This document shows positions 7,538 through 37,955 of a stretch of 64,000 nucleotides of DNA, one piece after another. The notes below the pieces were generated by a model. It was not told the DNA's origin and searched no databases. It worked only from the letters and a program-made list of their open reading frames with translations. Origin of the DNA: Bacillus sp. SB49 (lineage in GTDB: Bacteria; Bacillota; Bacilli; Bacillales; Halobacillaceae); NCBI RefSeq assembly GCF_000469135.2, contig NZ_CP048117.1, forward strand, positions 2,207,501 through 2,271,500, read 5' to 3'. A program made the position numbers and the translations under genes. Position 1 is the first letter of the stretch, and every line of letters begins with the position of its first letter.

Positions 7538-9265
7538 TTATTTATTACGTTTATGTTTATCTGCCATAACGAGTAGTTCTTTTGCATGCTCGACTGTCGT
7601 TTCCGTCAATTCTGCGCCGGTAATCATTCGTGAGATTTCATCCGCCTGCTCTTCGTGTGTTAATTCCGAAGCAGCCGTGTGGGTTCGATCATTATCCACG
7701 CGCTTCTCAATCCTAATGTGCGTATCGGCCATTGCAGCTACTTGTGGCAGGTGGGAGATGCAGAGCACTTGGGATCCTTCGGAGATGCCGTATATCTTCT
7801 CAGCAATCGCCTGAGCTACTCTGCCGCTTACACCTGTGTCGACTTCATCGAATATGACGCTCGTTACTCCCTGGTGTCTGGAAAATATCCGCTTTAGTGC
7901 AAGCATTATACGTGACATTTCTCCACCGGAAGCGACTTTATGTAATTCTTTAAGCGGTTCTCCTGGATTTGTGGTAATGAGGAATTTCACAATATCCGTA
8001 CCGTTTGGCATCAGCTGAACCGGCTTACCTTCAAACATTGGATCCTGTTCTTTTCCTTCCTTCATACGGACATCAACCGCAAAAGATGCTTTCTCTAAAT
8101 ATAAATCGCGCAGCTCTTCATGAATGTATTCCCCTAGACGCGAAGCTGCTTCCATTCGTATGTCGTGGATTGCTTTCGCTTCCAATACGGCATCCTGACC
8201 AAGTTCATATATGTCTGATTCCATCTTACTTAAATGAGAGTCTTTGTTCTTAATCTCATCAATTTCTTCCTCAATCTTAGATGCGTATTGAAGCATATCA
8301 TCCACTGTACCACCATATTTTTTCTTCAAACGGTTGAGCTCATTCAACCTTGACTCCATTTGATTCAATCGTTCAGGATCAAATTCCAGTTCAGCCATTT
8401 GACTGCTCAACTGGAAGGTCATTTCTTCGATTAAATAATAAGAATTAGCCAATTCCTCTGATATTTTTGCGATGTTTTCATCGACATCCGCCGTGCTTTC
8501 CAAGGAAGTCATCGCATGACTAAGCCAATCGAGACCCCGCTGTTCACCATAAAGGGAATAATAGGCATCATGAATGCCTTGATAAATCTTCTCATAATTA
8601 AGCAGTTTCTTACGTTCCTCAGCCAGCTCTTCATCCTCTTTAGGTTCCATCTCCGCTTCCTGAAGTTCGCGAAGCTGAAATTCAAGAAGGTCAAGCCGCT
8701 GCGCCATCTCCTGCTCATTCTGACTCAAATCCTTATACCGTTTCCTCAATGTCCTGTACTTATCAAAGACCTTCTGATACTCCTCAAGCGTCGGACGAAT
8801 GCCTTCCCCGGCAAATACATCGAGAAGCTCTATGTGTCGATCAGGGTCCATCAATGACTGTGTTTCATGTTGGCTGTGTATATCAATGAGGGCCTGACCA
8901 AACTCCTTCATAATGCCAAGTGTAACAAGCTTTCCGTTTACGCGACATATGCTCTTTCCCTGATTTGTAATCGTCCTGTTCAAGACAACCATTCCATCAT
9001 CCTGAATGTCCACTCCAAACGCTTCCCCTGTACGGTAAATCGGGTGGTCGCGCTCCACGATAAATAAACCCTCTATTTCCGCCTTTTTCGTTCCATGCCG
9101 GACGAACTCTACAGAGCCTCTTCCGCCTGACAGCAGTTGAATAGCATCGATGATAATCGACTTACCGGCACCGGTCTCTCCAGTTAAAACGGTCAAACCT
9201 TCTTTAAATGTAATGGAAATCTGATCGATAATTGCAAAATCACGAATGGATAATTCCGTTAACAT
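7538..9265 (-). CDS. recN: DNA repair protein RecN
   Basis: RecN is an SMC-like ATPase that gathers broken DNA ends at the start of double-strand-break repair. The 575-residue protein has Walker A GETGAGKS near residue 30, long coiled-coil arms (about 155-370) with a central turn, the ABC signature region GGEMSRIMLA, and Walker B SVIFDEVDTGVSG. Its length is typical. The gene starts 15 bp after argR, and argR-recN is a conserved Bacillus pair, so the two are probably cotranscribed. I see no clear LexA box in front of it. Confidence 0.97.
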   Translation of the reverse strand: MLTELSIRDFAIIDQISITFKEGLTVLTGETGAGKSIIIDAIQLLSGGRGSVEFVRHGTKKAEIEGLFIVERDHPIYRTGEAFGVDIQDDGMVVLNRTITNQGKSICRVNGKLVTLGIMKEFGQALIDIHSQHETQSLMDPDRHIELLDVFAGEGIRPTLEEYQKVFDKYRTLRKRYKDLSQNEQEMAQRLDLLEFQLRELQEAEMEPKEDEELAEERKKLLNYEKIYQGIHDAYYSLYGEQRGLDWLSHAMTSLESTADVDENIAKISEELANSYYLIEEMTFQLSSQMAELEFDPERLNQMESRLNELNRLKKKYGGTVDDMLQYASKIEEEIDEIKNKDSHLSKMESDIYELGQDAVLEAKAIHDIRMEAASRLGEYIHEELRDLYLEKASFAVDVRMKEGKEQDPMFEGKPVQLMPNGTDIVKFLITTNPGEPLKELHKVASGGEMSRIMLALKRIFSRHQGVTSVIFDEVDTGVSGRVAQAIAEKIYGISEGSQVLCISHLPQVAAMADTHIRIEKRVDNDRTHTAASELTHEEQADEISRMITGAELTETTVEHAKELLVMADKHKRNK

Positions 9266-9280
9266 GAAAATACACCTCAG

Positions 9281-9730
9281 TTATAGCATATTTAGCAGCT
9301 GTTCGCTTATCGCCTCTGTCTGCTTCTCACTTCGACAAATAATCAAACACGTATCATCCCCGCATATCGTGCCCATGATCTCGTCCCAATCTAAATTATC
9401 CACCAATGCGCCAATGGCATTCGCATTCCCGGGCAGAGTCTTCAAAATGATGAAGTGACCTGCGCGGTCAATACTGACGAAAGCATCCATCATAAGTCTT
9501 TTCAGCTTTTCCAACGGGTTGAACCGCTGATCGGCAGGCAGGCTGTATTTATAACGACCATCCATCATAGGAACTTTGACAAGGTGCAGTTCTTTTATAT
9601 CACGGGATACCGTTGCTTGTGTGACGTTGTACCCCATTCCCTTTAAACGATCCACCAGTTCATCCTGCGTTTCAATATCGTCGTTTGTAATCAATTCCCT
9701 GATTTTGATATGACGTTGTCCTTTATTCAT
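9281..9730 (-). CDS. argR: Arginine repressor ArgR/AhrC
   Basis: ArgR represses arginine synthesis and activates its catabolism as an arginine-bound hexamer. The 149-residue protein has an N-terminal winged helix ([12 protein letters not shown] as recognition region) and a C-terminal arginine-binding and oligomerisation domain with the diagnostic [13 protein letters not shown]. The ATG at 9730 gives the N-terminus [12 protein letters not shown] shared with B. subtilis AhrC and is preceded by GGAGG with 6-base spacing. An upstream in-frame start at 9748 would add six residues and has no binding site. Confidence 0.97.
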
Positions 9731-9761
9731 GACCATCCTCCATTTCAAGTCCTTCCATAAG

Positions 9762-10624: not shown

Positions 10625-12517
10625 TTATGCCCTTTGCTGTTTAGTTGGGACCAATTCTTTTAGATTCTTGACGAGCGCATCCTCCGTCAATCCAATCTCT
10701 TCCCATAATTGACTTACACTTCCGTGTTCAATAAAACGGTCCGGAATTCCCATACGCTTCACAAATTGTCCGTTATACCCATTCTCTTCGGAAAATTCCA
10801 GGATGCTTGCTCCGAAACCGCCCTGAAGAACAGCTTCTTCGACTGTAATAATAGGTAGACCTTCCTTCATAATGTCATGGAGCATCGCATCATCAAGCGG
10901 TTTGATGAATCGGGCGTTGACAACCCGGACAGAGCGTCCTTCCTTCTCCATACGCCTGCTTGCTTCCAGAGCCATATCGATCGTAGTTCCGAAGGTGAGT
11001 ATAACAGCATCTTTACCTTCTTTAAGAACGTCCCAACTGCCGATCGGTATCGTCTTCTGAACACGATCCACTTCCACACCTTTTGCATTTCCACGTGGAT
11101 AGCGGATGGCAAACGGACCATCATCATAAGACGCGGCCGTATGAACGAGGTGCTGCGCCTCATTTTCGTCTTTAGGCATAGTAATGATCATATTCGGAAT
11201 GGAACGTAGAAACGCGACATCGAATACTCCCTGGTGTGTTTCTCCATCCGCACCGACAAGCCCGGCACGATCGATTCCAAGGATGACATTCAGTTTCATA
11301 CGGGCGATGTCATGGATCACCTGGTCGTAACTGCGTTGAAGGAATGTCGAGTAAATAGCCAAAAACGGCTTCATCCCCTGAGTTGCCAGCCCCGCAGACA
11401 GCGTGGTCGCATGTTGTTCTGCGATACCTACATCATAGAGCCTGTCCGGAAACTCCTCGCCGAATTTTTCAAGCTTGGAACCGAGAATCATTGCTGGTGT
11501 GACTGCAACAATACGATCATCTTTTCTTGCTTCCACCCGCAGAGCTTCACTGATGACCGAGCTCCATGCTGGAGGGGCATCTACAGGCTTGATTTTCTCC
11601 CCGGACTCGATCTTGTAAGGGCCCACGCCATGCCATTTGTCTTTCACATCATTCTCAGCCGGATGATAGCCTTTACCTTTTTGGGTCATGACATGGACGA
11701 TGACAGGACCATCTGTTTTCTTCGCATATTTGAGATTTTCGATAAGGTCGTCGAAATCATGCCCGTCCACAGGACCAAAATAAGTAAATCCCAGTTCCTC
11801 AAAAAACATGCCGGGAACGACGAAATATTTCATGCTGTCTTTCAATCGTTCAGCGACTTGGGCAATCTTACCGCCGACGGCTGGGATCTTCTTCATGATC
11901 CACTCTAAGTCGTCTTTTGCACGGTTATATTTCCCGGCACTTCTCATTCGAGCAAGTGCCCCGTGCAGCGCACCGACGTTTTTGGCGATGGACATTTCGT
12001 TATCATTTAAGATGACGGTTACATTCTTCTTCTCATCCCCTATATGGTTCAGCGCTTCCAAGGCCATTCCCCCTGTAAGGGCGCCGTCTCCAATAATCGG
12101 AAGGATCGAATGGTTTTCTTTTTTAAGGTCCCTTGCGATCGCCATTCCCATGGCTGCGGAAAGAGACGTGGAGCTGTGTCCCGTTTCCCAGACATCGTGT
12201 TCGCTCTCATCCCGCTTAGGGAATCCGCACAGACCTTTATATTGGCGAAGCGAGCCGAATTGGTCTGCTCTCCCTGTCAGGATTTTATGGATATAGGACT
12301 GGTGTCCGACGTCCCACAGCAGGCGGTCTTCCGGACTGTTGTACACTTTATGCAAAGCAAGCGTCAGTTCGACTACGCCGAGGTTAGCCCCCAGGTGCCC
12401 TCCTGTCGCTGCCAGATTTTCAATAAGGAATTGTCTTGTTTCCTGCGCTAGTACTTCTAGCTGCTTTGTATTCATTTCCTTTAGAAAGGAAGGATTTTTG
12501 ATTTTACACAGATCCAT
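10625..12517 (-). CDS. dxs: 1-deoxy-D-xylulose-5-phosphate synthase
   Basis: Dxs condenses pyruvate and glyceraldehyde 3-phosphate in a thiamine-diphosphate reaction that opens the MEP isoprenoid pathway. At 630 residues it is full length. Visible motifs are [13 protein letters not shown] (substrate and TPP histidines), [16 protein letters not shown] (GDG...N TPP and Mg site), and the pyrimidine-domain [15 protein letters not shown] with the catalytic glutamate. It lies 18 bp after the small membrane-protein gene oapA and in the same direction as ispA, so isoprenoid supply and the OLE RNA share a transcription unit. An AAGGGGG site precedes the ATG. Confidence 0.97.
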
Positions 12518-12535: not shown

Positions 12536-13135
12536 TTATCTTGATTTTTTTGCGGATGCCGCCGTTCCTGTTACTATTTTTACTTTCAGACGCTTTTCTA
12601 ACCATGCAATTACTTTTGCGGCTGTAAAGATAATCTTCGTGGAAGAGTGAATAGCAAAGGATTTCCCTAAAGCCTTCCCTCCGACCGTAAGCGCAGCGAC
12701 AATACTTGTCAGTGTGACAGAGATGACGATCTGCACGGTCGAACCTTCATTGTAGCCGAAGGAGTTGGCGAGTTGGATGACGACAACAGCAGATGCTGTT
12801 CCGCTGACTATACCAGATATATCCCCTATTACGTCGTTACAGAAACTAGCGAATCGATCCGCGTTTCTCACGATGACAATAGCTTCTTTCGCACCTGGGA
12901 CCTTTTCAGAGGCCATGGCATGAAACGGGGTTTCATCTGCAGCAGTGGCTGCTATGCCCAGCATATCGAAAACGACACCAATCAATACGATGATCAATAC
13001 AATGACGAGGCCGAAGATCCATATGACACCACTTAACACGGAAGAAGATATAACTGAAAAAATAGCCGCTAACACGAATGTGATAACGGCAATACTCAAA
13101 CTAAATTGTACGGCTCTTTTAAATTTATTGTCCAT
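12536..13135 (-). CDS. oapA: OapA-like OLE-RNA-associated membrane protein
   Basis: This 199-residue protein has about four hydrophobic segments (roughly 12-35, 37-62, 110-130, 135-155) and a very basic C-terminal tail ending in KSR. It lies immediately downstream of a long structured non-coding RNA and before dxs. That is the position of the OLE-associated protein OapA in Bacillus halodurans, which binds OLE RNA and carries it to the membrane. Automated annotation often labels such proteins as CorB-like Mg/Co transporters. The identification rests on position, size and topology; the basic tail fits RNA binding. Confidence 0.82.
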   Translation of the reverse strand: MDNKFKRAVQFSLSIAVITFVLAAIFSVISSSVLSGVIWIFGLVIVLIIVLIGVVFDMLGIAATAADETPFHAMASEKVPGAKEAIVIVRNADRFASFCNDVIGDISGIVSGTASAVVVIQLANSFGYNEGSTVQIVISVTLTSIVAALTVGGKALGKSFAIHSSTKIIFTAAKVIAWLEKRLKVKIVTGTAASAKKSR

Positions 13136-13204
13136 TCTATACCTCTATATATTAGAATTACATTTCATATGTAGGAAAGGAATGGTCATGAAACAGGTAA
13201 AAAT

Positions 13205-13790
13205 TGCGGCTTAGGTCTAGTAGGTTTTCCCAACTGAGTACCGAGTGTCACCACTCTGGCGGTTCCCCATTAAACTCAGCTCAGCTCCGTCTCCGAAAAC
13301 TGGACTAGATTGCCACTCAGTCCGCACTATAATTCCTGTTCCATGTCCATAAACGAACAGCCTAGGGGATTTCCCCGACAGCCTTTAGCCGTTCCTTAGC
13401 CTCTTTTGCAGTCATGATTTCATATAGTTTACGCATCAGCACCTCAGTGGCCATCTGAAGATGAACTGACATTCATGCTATAATCCCCTCAAACACCACT
13501 CAAGGCAGGCTACGCTGCGCACATAGAGACTACTCCATATGCTGCAGGTTCATACCCCATTTCATAACGGCATCTGGCTCAGATGCCATCACAAGAATGG
13601 GCCTCCGCGGAAGCAGGGTCAACGCCCACATGCCTTTGTGGATCGCCCTGCGACCTTAACTCCCAGCATCGACCCAAGGCTGGGCGCCTCAAGCCAACAC
13701 AAGGAACTTCATCGATGTGCCCTTCGGCGGATTTTTAGGCCCGCCTTCAGGAACGGAGGGCCGACTAGGATACTGCACCATTCCTTTATA
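13205..13790 (-). ncRNA. OLE RNA (ornate, large, extremophilic)
   Basis: The gap between ispA and oapA has no credible reading frame but is GC-rich and full of stems. On the minus strand GGCATCTG (13587-13580) and CAGATGCC (13576-13569) form a perfect hairpin, AGTG-GTGA-CACT (13255-13244) is a stem with a GNRA loop, and GGGGAAATCCCC forms another. ACTGAGT and ACTCAGT segments near 13312 and 13232 can pair. CTAGT at 13768-13764 can pair with ACTAG at 13221-13217 to close about 550 nt. Size, location in the isoprenoid operon and the adjacent OapA-like gene match OLE RNA of B. halodurans and relatives. Exact ends are estimates. Confidence 0.85.
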
Positions 13791-13842
13791 TAAATCAAAT
13801 ATACCATAGAATGATCAGCCGCTCAATCGAAAACATCCGGGA

Positions 13843-14721
13843 TCAATGGTCACGATCACTTAAGTACTCGATCAGTTGGGATAGAAACGTCCCTTCCACT
13901 CCGGCGTCTTTAAGTGCCTGTTTTGCTATACCGACATATTGCTCCTTCTGCTCCACGGCACCTTCGAGGCCAAGAAGTTGAGGGTAGGTGCTTTTATGAT
14001 TGCCTTCATCGCTTCCTGTCGGCTTTCCAATGACGGCTGCGTCTCCCGTTACGTCCAGGATATCGTCCTGAATTTGGAAAATAAGACCGAGTGCATCCGC
14101 CATTTTCTCCATGGCTGCACTTGCTTCGGAGGAAGCTCCTCCTAAATAAGCACCTGCCATGACAGAAAAACGGAGAAGCTGTCCCGTCTTATTTCTATGG
14201 ATACTTTCAAGCTCATCCAGCGTAATTTGTTTATTTTCACTGAGCATGTCCTGCATTTGTCCCTCGACCATGCCGGTGGCTCCACTTGCTTTTGCCAGTT
14301 CTTTAATCAGATACACACGCTCTCGATCGGAAAGCGCAGGATCTTCTGCAACGATCCGGGAGCTCATCGTAAGCAGTGCATCCCCTGCAAGAATCGCTGT
14401 CGCCTCGTCAAATTGTTTGTGATTGGTAGGCTGACCTCGACGCACATCATCATCATCCATTGCCGGAAGGTCATCGTGGATTAAAGAGTAGGTATGGATC
14501 ATTTCCAGGCTCGACGATACTCCCAATGTTTTTGTTTCTTCTACTCCAAACGCCTCGGCTGTCGCCATAAGCAGAATCGGCCGCAGTCGCTTCCCTCCTG
14601 CTCTTAACGAATACAGCATGGCATCCTGCAGCCTCCCGGGAGTCGAGTATTCGCGCAGGTACATATCCAAATAGTCATTGATTGTCTCACGTTTATCGCT
14701 GAGGTAATCCATTAATGCCAC
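13843..14721 (-). CDS. ispA: Farnesyl diphosphate synthase / polyprenyl synthetase
   Basis: It joins isopentenyl diphosphate to dimethylallyl and geranyl diphosphate to make farnesyl diphosphate. The 292-residue protein shows the first aspartate-rich motif DDLPAMDDDD (near residue 84), the second motif FQIQDDILD (near 214), and the RAGGKRLRP substrate-binding segment. The GTG at 14721 follows GGAGG with suitable spacing. It is 3 bp from xseB and 52 bp before the start of the OLE RNA region; ispA-OLE-oapA-dxs is the OLE locus order reported for B. halodurans. Confidence 0.96.
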   Translation of the reverse strand: MALMDYLSDKRETINDYLDMYLREYSTPGRLQDAMLYSLRAGGKRLRPILLMATAEAFGVEETKTLGVSSSLEMIHTYSLIHDDLPAMDDDDVRRGQPTNHKQFDEATAILAGDALLTMSSRIVAEDPALSDRERVYLIKELAKASGATGMVEGQMQDMLSENKQITLDELESIHRNKTGQLLRFSVMAGAYLGGASSEASAAMEKMADALGLIFQIQDDILDVTGDAAVIGKPTGSDEGNHKSTYPQLLGLEGAVEQKEQYVGIAKQALKDAGVEGTFLSQLIEYLSDRDH

Positions 14722-37724: not shown

Positions 37725-37761
37725 AAAAAAAGAGACTCCTCCTGTAATCAAGGGAGTCTCT
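37725..37761 (-). terminator. Riboswitch-controlled terminator before gcvT
   Basis: AGAGACTCC (37731-37739) pairs with GGAGTCTCT (37753-37761) and the minus strand continues with TTTTTTT. It overlaps the end of the second glycine aptamer, as expected for an expression platform where ligand binding prevents termination. Confidence 0.85.
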
Positions 37762-37955
37762 GTCCATGTAAGCCAGAAAGTTTCACGTACGGATTCCTAT
37801 ATCCGTCCGCTTGCTTCTTGGGCGGTCTGCTTCTTCGCAGACGCTCTCCAGAGTTGCGTCCTGTAAAGGTCTTTTTGCCTGAGAGATTCACAAAGATTGT
37901 TTGCTCCTTCGGCGCCACGGTAGTAGTCTCTCCCATTACAGTCATCCGCTTTCGT
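37757..37955 (-). promoter_or_regulatory. Tandem glycine riboswitch
   Basis: The minus-strand leader of gcvT shows both glycine aptamers. The first runs from GGGAGAGACTAC through GCGCCGAAGGAGCAAAC, AATCTCTCAGGCAAAAAGAC and ends at ACTCTGGAGAG. The second follows with CGCCCAAGAAGCAAGCGG, GTGAAACTTTCTGGC and ends at GGACAGAG. The conserved cores and the short linker between them are intact. Cooperative glycine binding normally turns on glycine cleavage genes. Confidence 0.92.

Follow-up and report, generated by a model that had tools for sequence, protein, structure and literature searches.

The question raised by this locus is what occupies the gap of about 700 bp between ispA and the gene of a small membrane protein in the window (the whole stretch of 64,000 nucleotides that was analysed), for which a sequence-only reading had proposed OLE RNA on the minus strand and an OapA-like protein as its neighbour. 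We ran the Infernal check, and cmscan matched the Rfam OLE model (RF01071, gathering score 50 bits) on the minus strand from 13797 to 13166 at full length, i.e. over model positions 1-616 of 616, with 490.6 bits and an E-value of 6.4e-141. A covariance-model search returned this single match in the host genome and none in any of 14 control genomes. We are highly confident that the minus strand from 13797 to 13166 is the OLE RNA gene of Halobacillus. The gap had also been described as lacking credible coding, and indeed there is no minus-strand ORF of at least 70 aa between ispA and the 199-aa ORF; on the plus strand, an 84-aa ORF (13539-13793) lies inside the gap and an 89-aa ORF (12945-13214) enters it from within oapA. 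The two local structures pointed out beforehand, an 8-bp hairpin at 13587-13569 (GGCATCTG-AGC-CAGATGCC) and a GNRA-capped stem at 13256-13243 (GAGTG-GTGA-CACTC), are both in place.

The neighbours are likewise those that had been named. On the minus strand, the gene order is exonuclease VII small subunit, ispA (farnesyl diphosphate synthase, 13843..14721, NF045485), OLE, oapA (12536..13135, directly downstream of ole), dxs (10625..12517, TIGR00204), tlyA, ahrC/argR (9281..9748, NF003281) and a 575-aa ORF (7538-9265) that we take to be recN. The identification is in this sense an ordinary one, namely a known RNA class in its classic ispA-ole-oapA-dxs operon, and a literature search for OLE RNA together with Halobacillus gave no match. 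Elsewhere in the window, at 37758-37945 on the minus strand, there is a tandem glycine riboswitch (RF00504, 71.4 + 36.5 bits), and the genes directly downstream of it are presumably gcvT and gcvP. ArgR is reported as an OLE-binding protein in passages of PMC10898510. Because ArgR binds OLE RNA, we considered an ARG-box-like palindrome in P9 (CATGAATGTCAGTTCATC, 13477-13460, minus strand), which is not kept in the 21 other Halobacillus OLE genes aligned and was therefore set aside.

The 199-aa product of oapA is a CNNM-like membrane protein with a DxxxD motif. It scored 23.7 bits against Pfam CNNM, under the cut-off of 28.4, and had no match in NCBIfam, no match to the CBS or CorC_HlyC domains of Pfam, and none in a sequence search of solved structures. 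Weak CNNM similarity is a published trait of OapA, according to PMC11332333. Alignment with 33 of 80 fetched relatives left 20 invariant columns, which include D101 and D105 (the DxxxD motif) and GGKxxGK; the closest named OapA relative, from Halobacillus litoralis, is 83% identical, and an AlphaFold2 model built from the 33-relative alignment is all-helical with a mean pLDDT of 80. The sub-threshold CNNM similarity, the invariant DxxxD and GGKxxGK motifs and the presence of OLE upstream of 79 of the 80 relatives bear out the identity of the protein as OapA. In the 80th locus (L079), the OapA match begins 69 bases from the contig end.

OLE is common in the surroundings of the host. Of 22 Halobacillus genomes, 21 gave a match, and family-wide it was 43 of 44 genomes; the assembly of the one family genome without a match (G019) comprises about 1000 contigs and is 6% contaminated. 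In a phylum sample drawn evenly from genomes of at least 90% completeness, 290 of 398 had a match. One OLE, that of Bacillus fonticola (L060), was recovered as two separate nhmmer pieces spanning about 490 nt and is possibly a shortened form without part of domain 1. Among 304 OLE loci with at least 700 nt of downstream sequence each, OapA is directly downstream in 296, and in 217 of 225 when the loci fetched by OapA similarity are excluded. Of the eight loci without adjacent OapA, seven (L312, L324-L328 and L331, in genomes G205, G359, G091, G157, G208, G055 and G046) have OapA elsewhere in the genome. The eighth (L279, genome G346) has an OLE at 475 bits in a 99% complete genome in which the OapA search found no match, and it is a possible real exception to strict OLE-OapA co-occurrence.

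The tight linkage to oapA, together with the position of P1, whose end lies only 41 nt ahead of oapA on that strand, could also mean that the structure is a cis-regulatory leader controlling oapA or dxs and not a free RNA. We regard this as very improbable, since OLE is kept in seven of the eight unlinked cases with OapA elsewhere in the genome, a pattern scan between OLE and oapA finds no terminator-like site, and the full-length match is to a class whose RNA-level mutations give stress phenotypes in Halalkalibacterium halodurans (PMC12054373). Even less credible, to the point of being negligible, is that the window's OLE is a decayed, non-functional copy: it does have the lowest score of 21 in the genus (490.6 bits vs 496.1-518.6), but the whole model is aligned with few non-standard pairs, the long invariant stretches of the genus are retained, and the frames of oapA, oapB and oapC are open.

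Directly upstream of the OLE gene, a pattern scan found a promoter-like element on the minus strand at 13798..13826, consisting of TTGAGC, a 17-nt spacing and an extended -10 element, TG-G-TATATT. The scan is weak alone, with three such patterns found in the region vs 2.7 +/- 1.9 in shuffles. In the alignment of the 304 sequences, however, the stretch upstream of P1 reads T-R-T-G-N-TATAAT, with identities of 71 to 93% for the six -10 bases and of 53 to 74% for TTGA at the -35 place. An extended -10 occurs within 45 nt upstream of 138 of 189 testable OLE genes, vs 2 of 189 at an internal control position, and of all 22 Halobacillus OLE genes. These figures lead us to predict that OLE genes have a conserved extended -10 promoter of their own directly upstream. 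The passages of PMC10898510 and PMC12054373 on promoters speak of none for ole, and an own ole promoter may already be known from the founding papers.

To assess the fold of the RNA, we used a discovery alignment of 222 OLE RNAs, 79 from OapA loci and 143 from genomes, which includes some near-duplicates and has an effective number of 134. Covarying pairs were scored with an R-scape-like script. All 57 pairs with an E-value of at most 1 sit in nested helices. They cover P1, P2 and P3 (helix names P1-P4 were assigned from published papers), all three of which are left unpaired in the structure line of the Rfam model. These predicted long-range closures are supported by covariation and pairing counts, all coordinates being on the minus strand. 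The 5' strand of P1 (13777..13786) pairs with 13186-13177, and that of P2 (13765..13775, CAG...CCTAG) with 13365-13358, each of the eight P2 pairs forming in at least 302 of 304 sequences and the pair 13769/13361 co-changing about 22 times on the tree. In P3, 13750..13762 pairs with 13395-13380, with covariation at 13754/13391 and others and with each pair forming in 250 to 299 of 297-304 sequences; PMC12265935 proposes that it is a membrane-spanning helix.

A different long-range closure, between CTAGT and ACTAG, had been suggested by the sequence-only reading. Both strings are present, at 13768-13764 and 13221-13217, but their pairing is unsupported, as other partners covary: the 200 best covarying pairs listed include none of the five that it would need, the 5' CTAG pairs with CTAG at 13365-13362 in P2, and ACTAG pairs with a local CTAGT at 13308-13304, where 13307/13218 and 13304/13221 covary. 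Each CTAGT/ACTAG pair is possible in 276 to 304 of the 304 sequences because the strands are nearly invariant.

Two features of domain 1 correspond to contacts in the published cryo-EM dimers of OLE from Clostridium acetobutylicum (PMC12286853) and C. botulinum (9LCR, as cited in passages of PMC12265935). The A-rich P4 loop of dimer bridge B1 has its counterpart in the P4 hairpin with an AAAAA loop at 13726..13745 (CTAAAAAT, which 286 of the 304 RNAs have at some position), and dimer bridge B3 in the palindromic GGCC of loop L9.3 at 13449..13452, with TGGCCA occurring at some position in 119 of the 304. According to these same sources, the two structures resolve domain 1 only, whereas the contacts that we propose below are in domain 2. 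The CCUCCU anti-Shine-Dalgarno mimic that H. halodurans OLE has in P6 is absent from the window's OLE, which has CCCTGCTTCC instead. CCTCC occurs at this place in only 30 of 304 sequences, and H. halodurans mutants with an altered mimic still bind bS21, as stated in passages of PMC12054373. The mimic is not a defining feature of the OLE class.

Domain 1 is solved, whereas the structure of domain 2 is still to be determined according to PMC12265935, whose authors suggest that some interactions required for it to fold are absent. Here, the two strongest covarying non-helix pairs in 304 OLE RNAs both lie in domain 2. One links 13225, an A and the sole variable base of GGGAAA-N-CC, to 13203, the U of CAA-N-N-UUUACC; the pair would cross the helix 13309-13304/13221-13216 and would therefore be tertiary. 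The other links 13311, the A of GGYAAUC, to 13303, the C after helix strand 13309-13304 (all on the minus strand). In the discovery set, 13225-13203 was the best non-helix pair with an E-value of 4.85, which is not significant alone, and 13311-13303 was weak, with a non-significant E-value of about 150. The pairing rule for 13225-13203 was predicted before further sequences were fetched as a held-out set; 13311-13303 was first noticed in that set, which is therefore no blind test for it.

The held-out set comprised 83 OLE RNAs from genera not among the genomes giving the 143 discovery RNAs, or 82 after one partial sequence was dropped; identity to the discovery sequences stays at or below 95% for all 82, with two above 85%. 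Among 202,929 non-helix pairs in these 82 RNAs, 13225-13203 ranked first and 13311-13303 second. At 13225-13203, a purine stands opposite a pyrimidine in 73 of 82 sequences, vs a maximum of 65 in 100,000 permutations that ignored kinship. Counting against pairing, of the 11 held-out sequences in which the equivalent of 13225 is G, 6 have A or G as its partner. In all 304 sequences, the pair is A-U in 150, A.C in 62, U-A in 53, G-C in 8, G.A in 7, U.G in 7, C.A in 4 and others in 13, with a purine opposite a pyrimidine in 286. Alignment-free extraction, in which 230 of 304 sequences fit the motif and 74 were missed, agrees with this, a purine standing opposite a pyrimidine in 218 of 230; the corresponding extraction for 13311-13303 (190 sequences) was biased by its own pattern and was left unused. 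The composition of 13311-13303 is A.C 223, G.U 29, A-U 23, A.A 18, G.G 9 and others 2, and it ranks first of 161,058 pairs for co-change on the tree of the 304 sequences. The 13225-13203 pairing would mostly be A-U, A.C or U-A, and 13311-13303 would be an A.C pair changing to G.U. The longer GGGAAA/UUUACC complementarity around 13225-13203 is nearly invariant and for that reason beyond a covariation test.

Lesser hints came from 13324/13207 with 13312 as a triple (co-change rank 3 of 161,058, held-out rank 46 of 202,929), 13721 with 13508 in domain 1 (ranks 4 and 181) and 13318 with 13211 (ranks 5 and 331). The published dimer contact L5-L6 (alignment positions 148 and 194) reaches 47.1 in the combined set and ranks only 807 of 161,058 for co-change and 3,609 of 202,929 in the held-out set; the two tests therefore miss some real contacts.

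Shared ancestry or base composition might produce such covariations without any contact; other pairs (alignment positions 500/528 and 142/340) do show a clade-linked correlation, and 13311-13303 was weak in the discovery set. For 13225/13203, however, there are about 27 double changes on the tree (vs about 20 each for two accepted helix pairs), coincident changes in the 304 sequences number 14.7 where 2.4 are expected (second of 161,058), the pair comes first again when the held-out set is restricted to the 63 RNAs with no more than 80% identity to any from discovery, and it scores 144 against 22.8 for the next best partner, so that we consider an origin without contact improbable. Harder to weigh is whether the covariations link the two monomers of an OLE dimer instead of two parts of one chain. 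Low-resolution density suggests that domain 2 dimerises too (passages of PMC12265935), and 13311 and 13303, on one strand at either side of a 6-bp helix, would be awkwardly placed for a contact in a single chain; sequence offers nothing against the idea, as covariation fits a contact within a chain and one between chains alike. We see a link between monomers as a genuine possibility, though one we would not favour.

The most far-reaching interpretation, to which we give a probability of roughly 0.55, is that OLE has a conserved tertiary core in domain 2 that has not been described before, in which the GGGAAA-N-CCU junction strand would reach back and pair with the CAA-N-N-UUUACC loop, probably helped by the second contact. 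From the covariation we infer that 13225, in the GGGAAANCCU strand, contacts 13203, in the internal loop that separates the two basal helices; the second contact, 13311 with 13303, is probable. Used as a restraint, the contact predicts that the GGGAAANCCU strand adjoins the CAANNUUUACC loop. Such a core would fold the outer arm, which bears the OapB site by published papers, onto the base of domain 2, within or between chains. Extended Data Fig. 8a of Kretsch et al. plots R-scape pairs for OLE, some of them outside the consensus, and 13225-13203 and 13311-13303 may be plotted there, unlabelled.

The three partners reported essential in H. halodurans, plus bS21, are all encoded in the host genome. 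OapB is a KOW protein (G000:C1:187257) scoring 114.9 bits against PDB 7k9b, 'OLE-associated protein B', and its gene has neighbours that we take to be map and infA. OapC/YbxF is an open 82-aa frame (NF010125 at 115.3 bits, cut-off 113; PDB 4lck/3v7e), followed by what is presumably rpsL; an apparent stop inside oapC ('1 TAA' in the genome search) turned out to be the natural stop of the open YbxF frame. bS21 was found as PF01165, and the gene next after rpsU (bS21), at G000:C1:2308726 (L233), reads as yqeY. The products of rpsU and yqeY are both discussed as OLE partners in passages of PMC12054373.

Host and H. halodurans thus have in common a full-length Rfam match, the ispA-ole-oapA-dxs neighbourhood and genes for OapA, OapB, OapC and bS21. 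Modelled on H. halodurans, a mechanism may be sketched whose correctness as a whole we put at even odds. Within the ispA-ole-oapA-dxs cluster, a promoter of its own immediately before the gene would account for at least part of OLE transcription. Two OLE RNAs would dimerise via domain 1, through the A-rich P4 loop, kissing of the P5/P6 loops and the GGCC of L9.3, and OapA dimers would bind beside P2/P4a, holding P3 at or through the membrane. OapC would bind the kink-turn at P5, bS21 would bind P6 and OapB domain 2, and the particle might serve as a membrane-bound stress-response scaffold tied to Mg2+ handling and translation. The host has the RNA next to oapA, with P1-P3, the P4 loop and the L9.3 palindrome, and the four partner genes; dimer, membrane location and stress role we infer from published work on other species.

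With regard to transporters, OapA weakly matches the CNNM domain of MpfA and CorB, which have a CNNM-CBS-CorC_HlyC architecture; in contrast to them, it has no CBS or CorC_HlyC match and has DxxxD, and the MpfA-type proteins are encoded by separate genes. Besides OLE, the host genome encodes three proteins of this MpfA-type architecture, whereas H. halodurans is reported to be without mpfA in passages of PMC11332333. The published tendency is for OLE-bearing genomes to have at most one MpfA. In genomes other than the host, we counted strong CNNM matches only (above 100 bits in Halobacillus, an E-value of at most 1e-20 elsewhere). On this count, seven Halobacillus genomes have one, ten have two, four have three and one has four, with at least two in 15 of the 21 OLE-positive ones. 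The remaining 22 genomes of the family are all OLE-positive and 17 have at least two, giving 32 of 43 OLE-bearing genomes in the family. Outside the class, 40 OLE-positive genomes agree with the published tendency (none in 28, one in 10, two in 2), and one OLE-negative genome has one; within the host's order and class, 15 of 17 genomes lacking OLE have at least two. The family is an exception to the anticorrelation of OLE and MpfA and not its disproof. With three MpfA-type transporters alongside OLE, the notion of OLE as a replacement for MpfA is too simple for this family.

To our knowledge, among conserved bacterial RNAs to which no biochemical activity has been assigned, OLE is one of the largest. 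Beyond the ordinary identification, what merits the attention of specialists are the proposed contacts in domain 2, the promoter and the counts of MpfA-type proteins. The 13225-13203 covariation could be put to a direct test by compensatory mutation and would supply a distance restraint when domain 2 is modelled, and with a conserved promoter upstream of OLE, as predicted here, OLE output could be set apart from the isoprenoid operon. Furthermore, the occurrence of OLE beside at least two MpfA-type proteins, as judged from strong CNNM matches, in most genomes of one family provides a natural test of the idea that the two replace each other.
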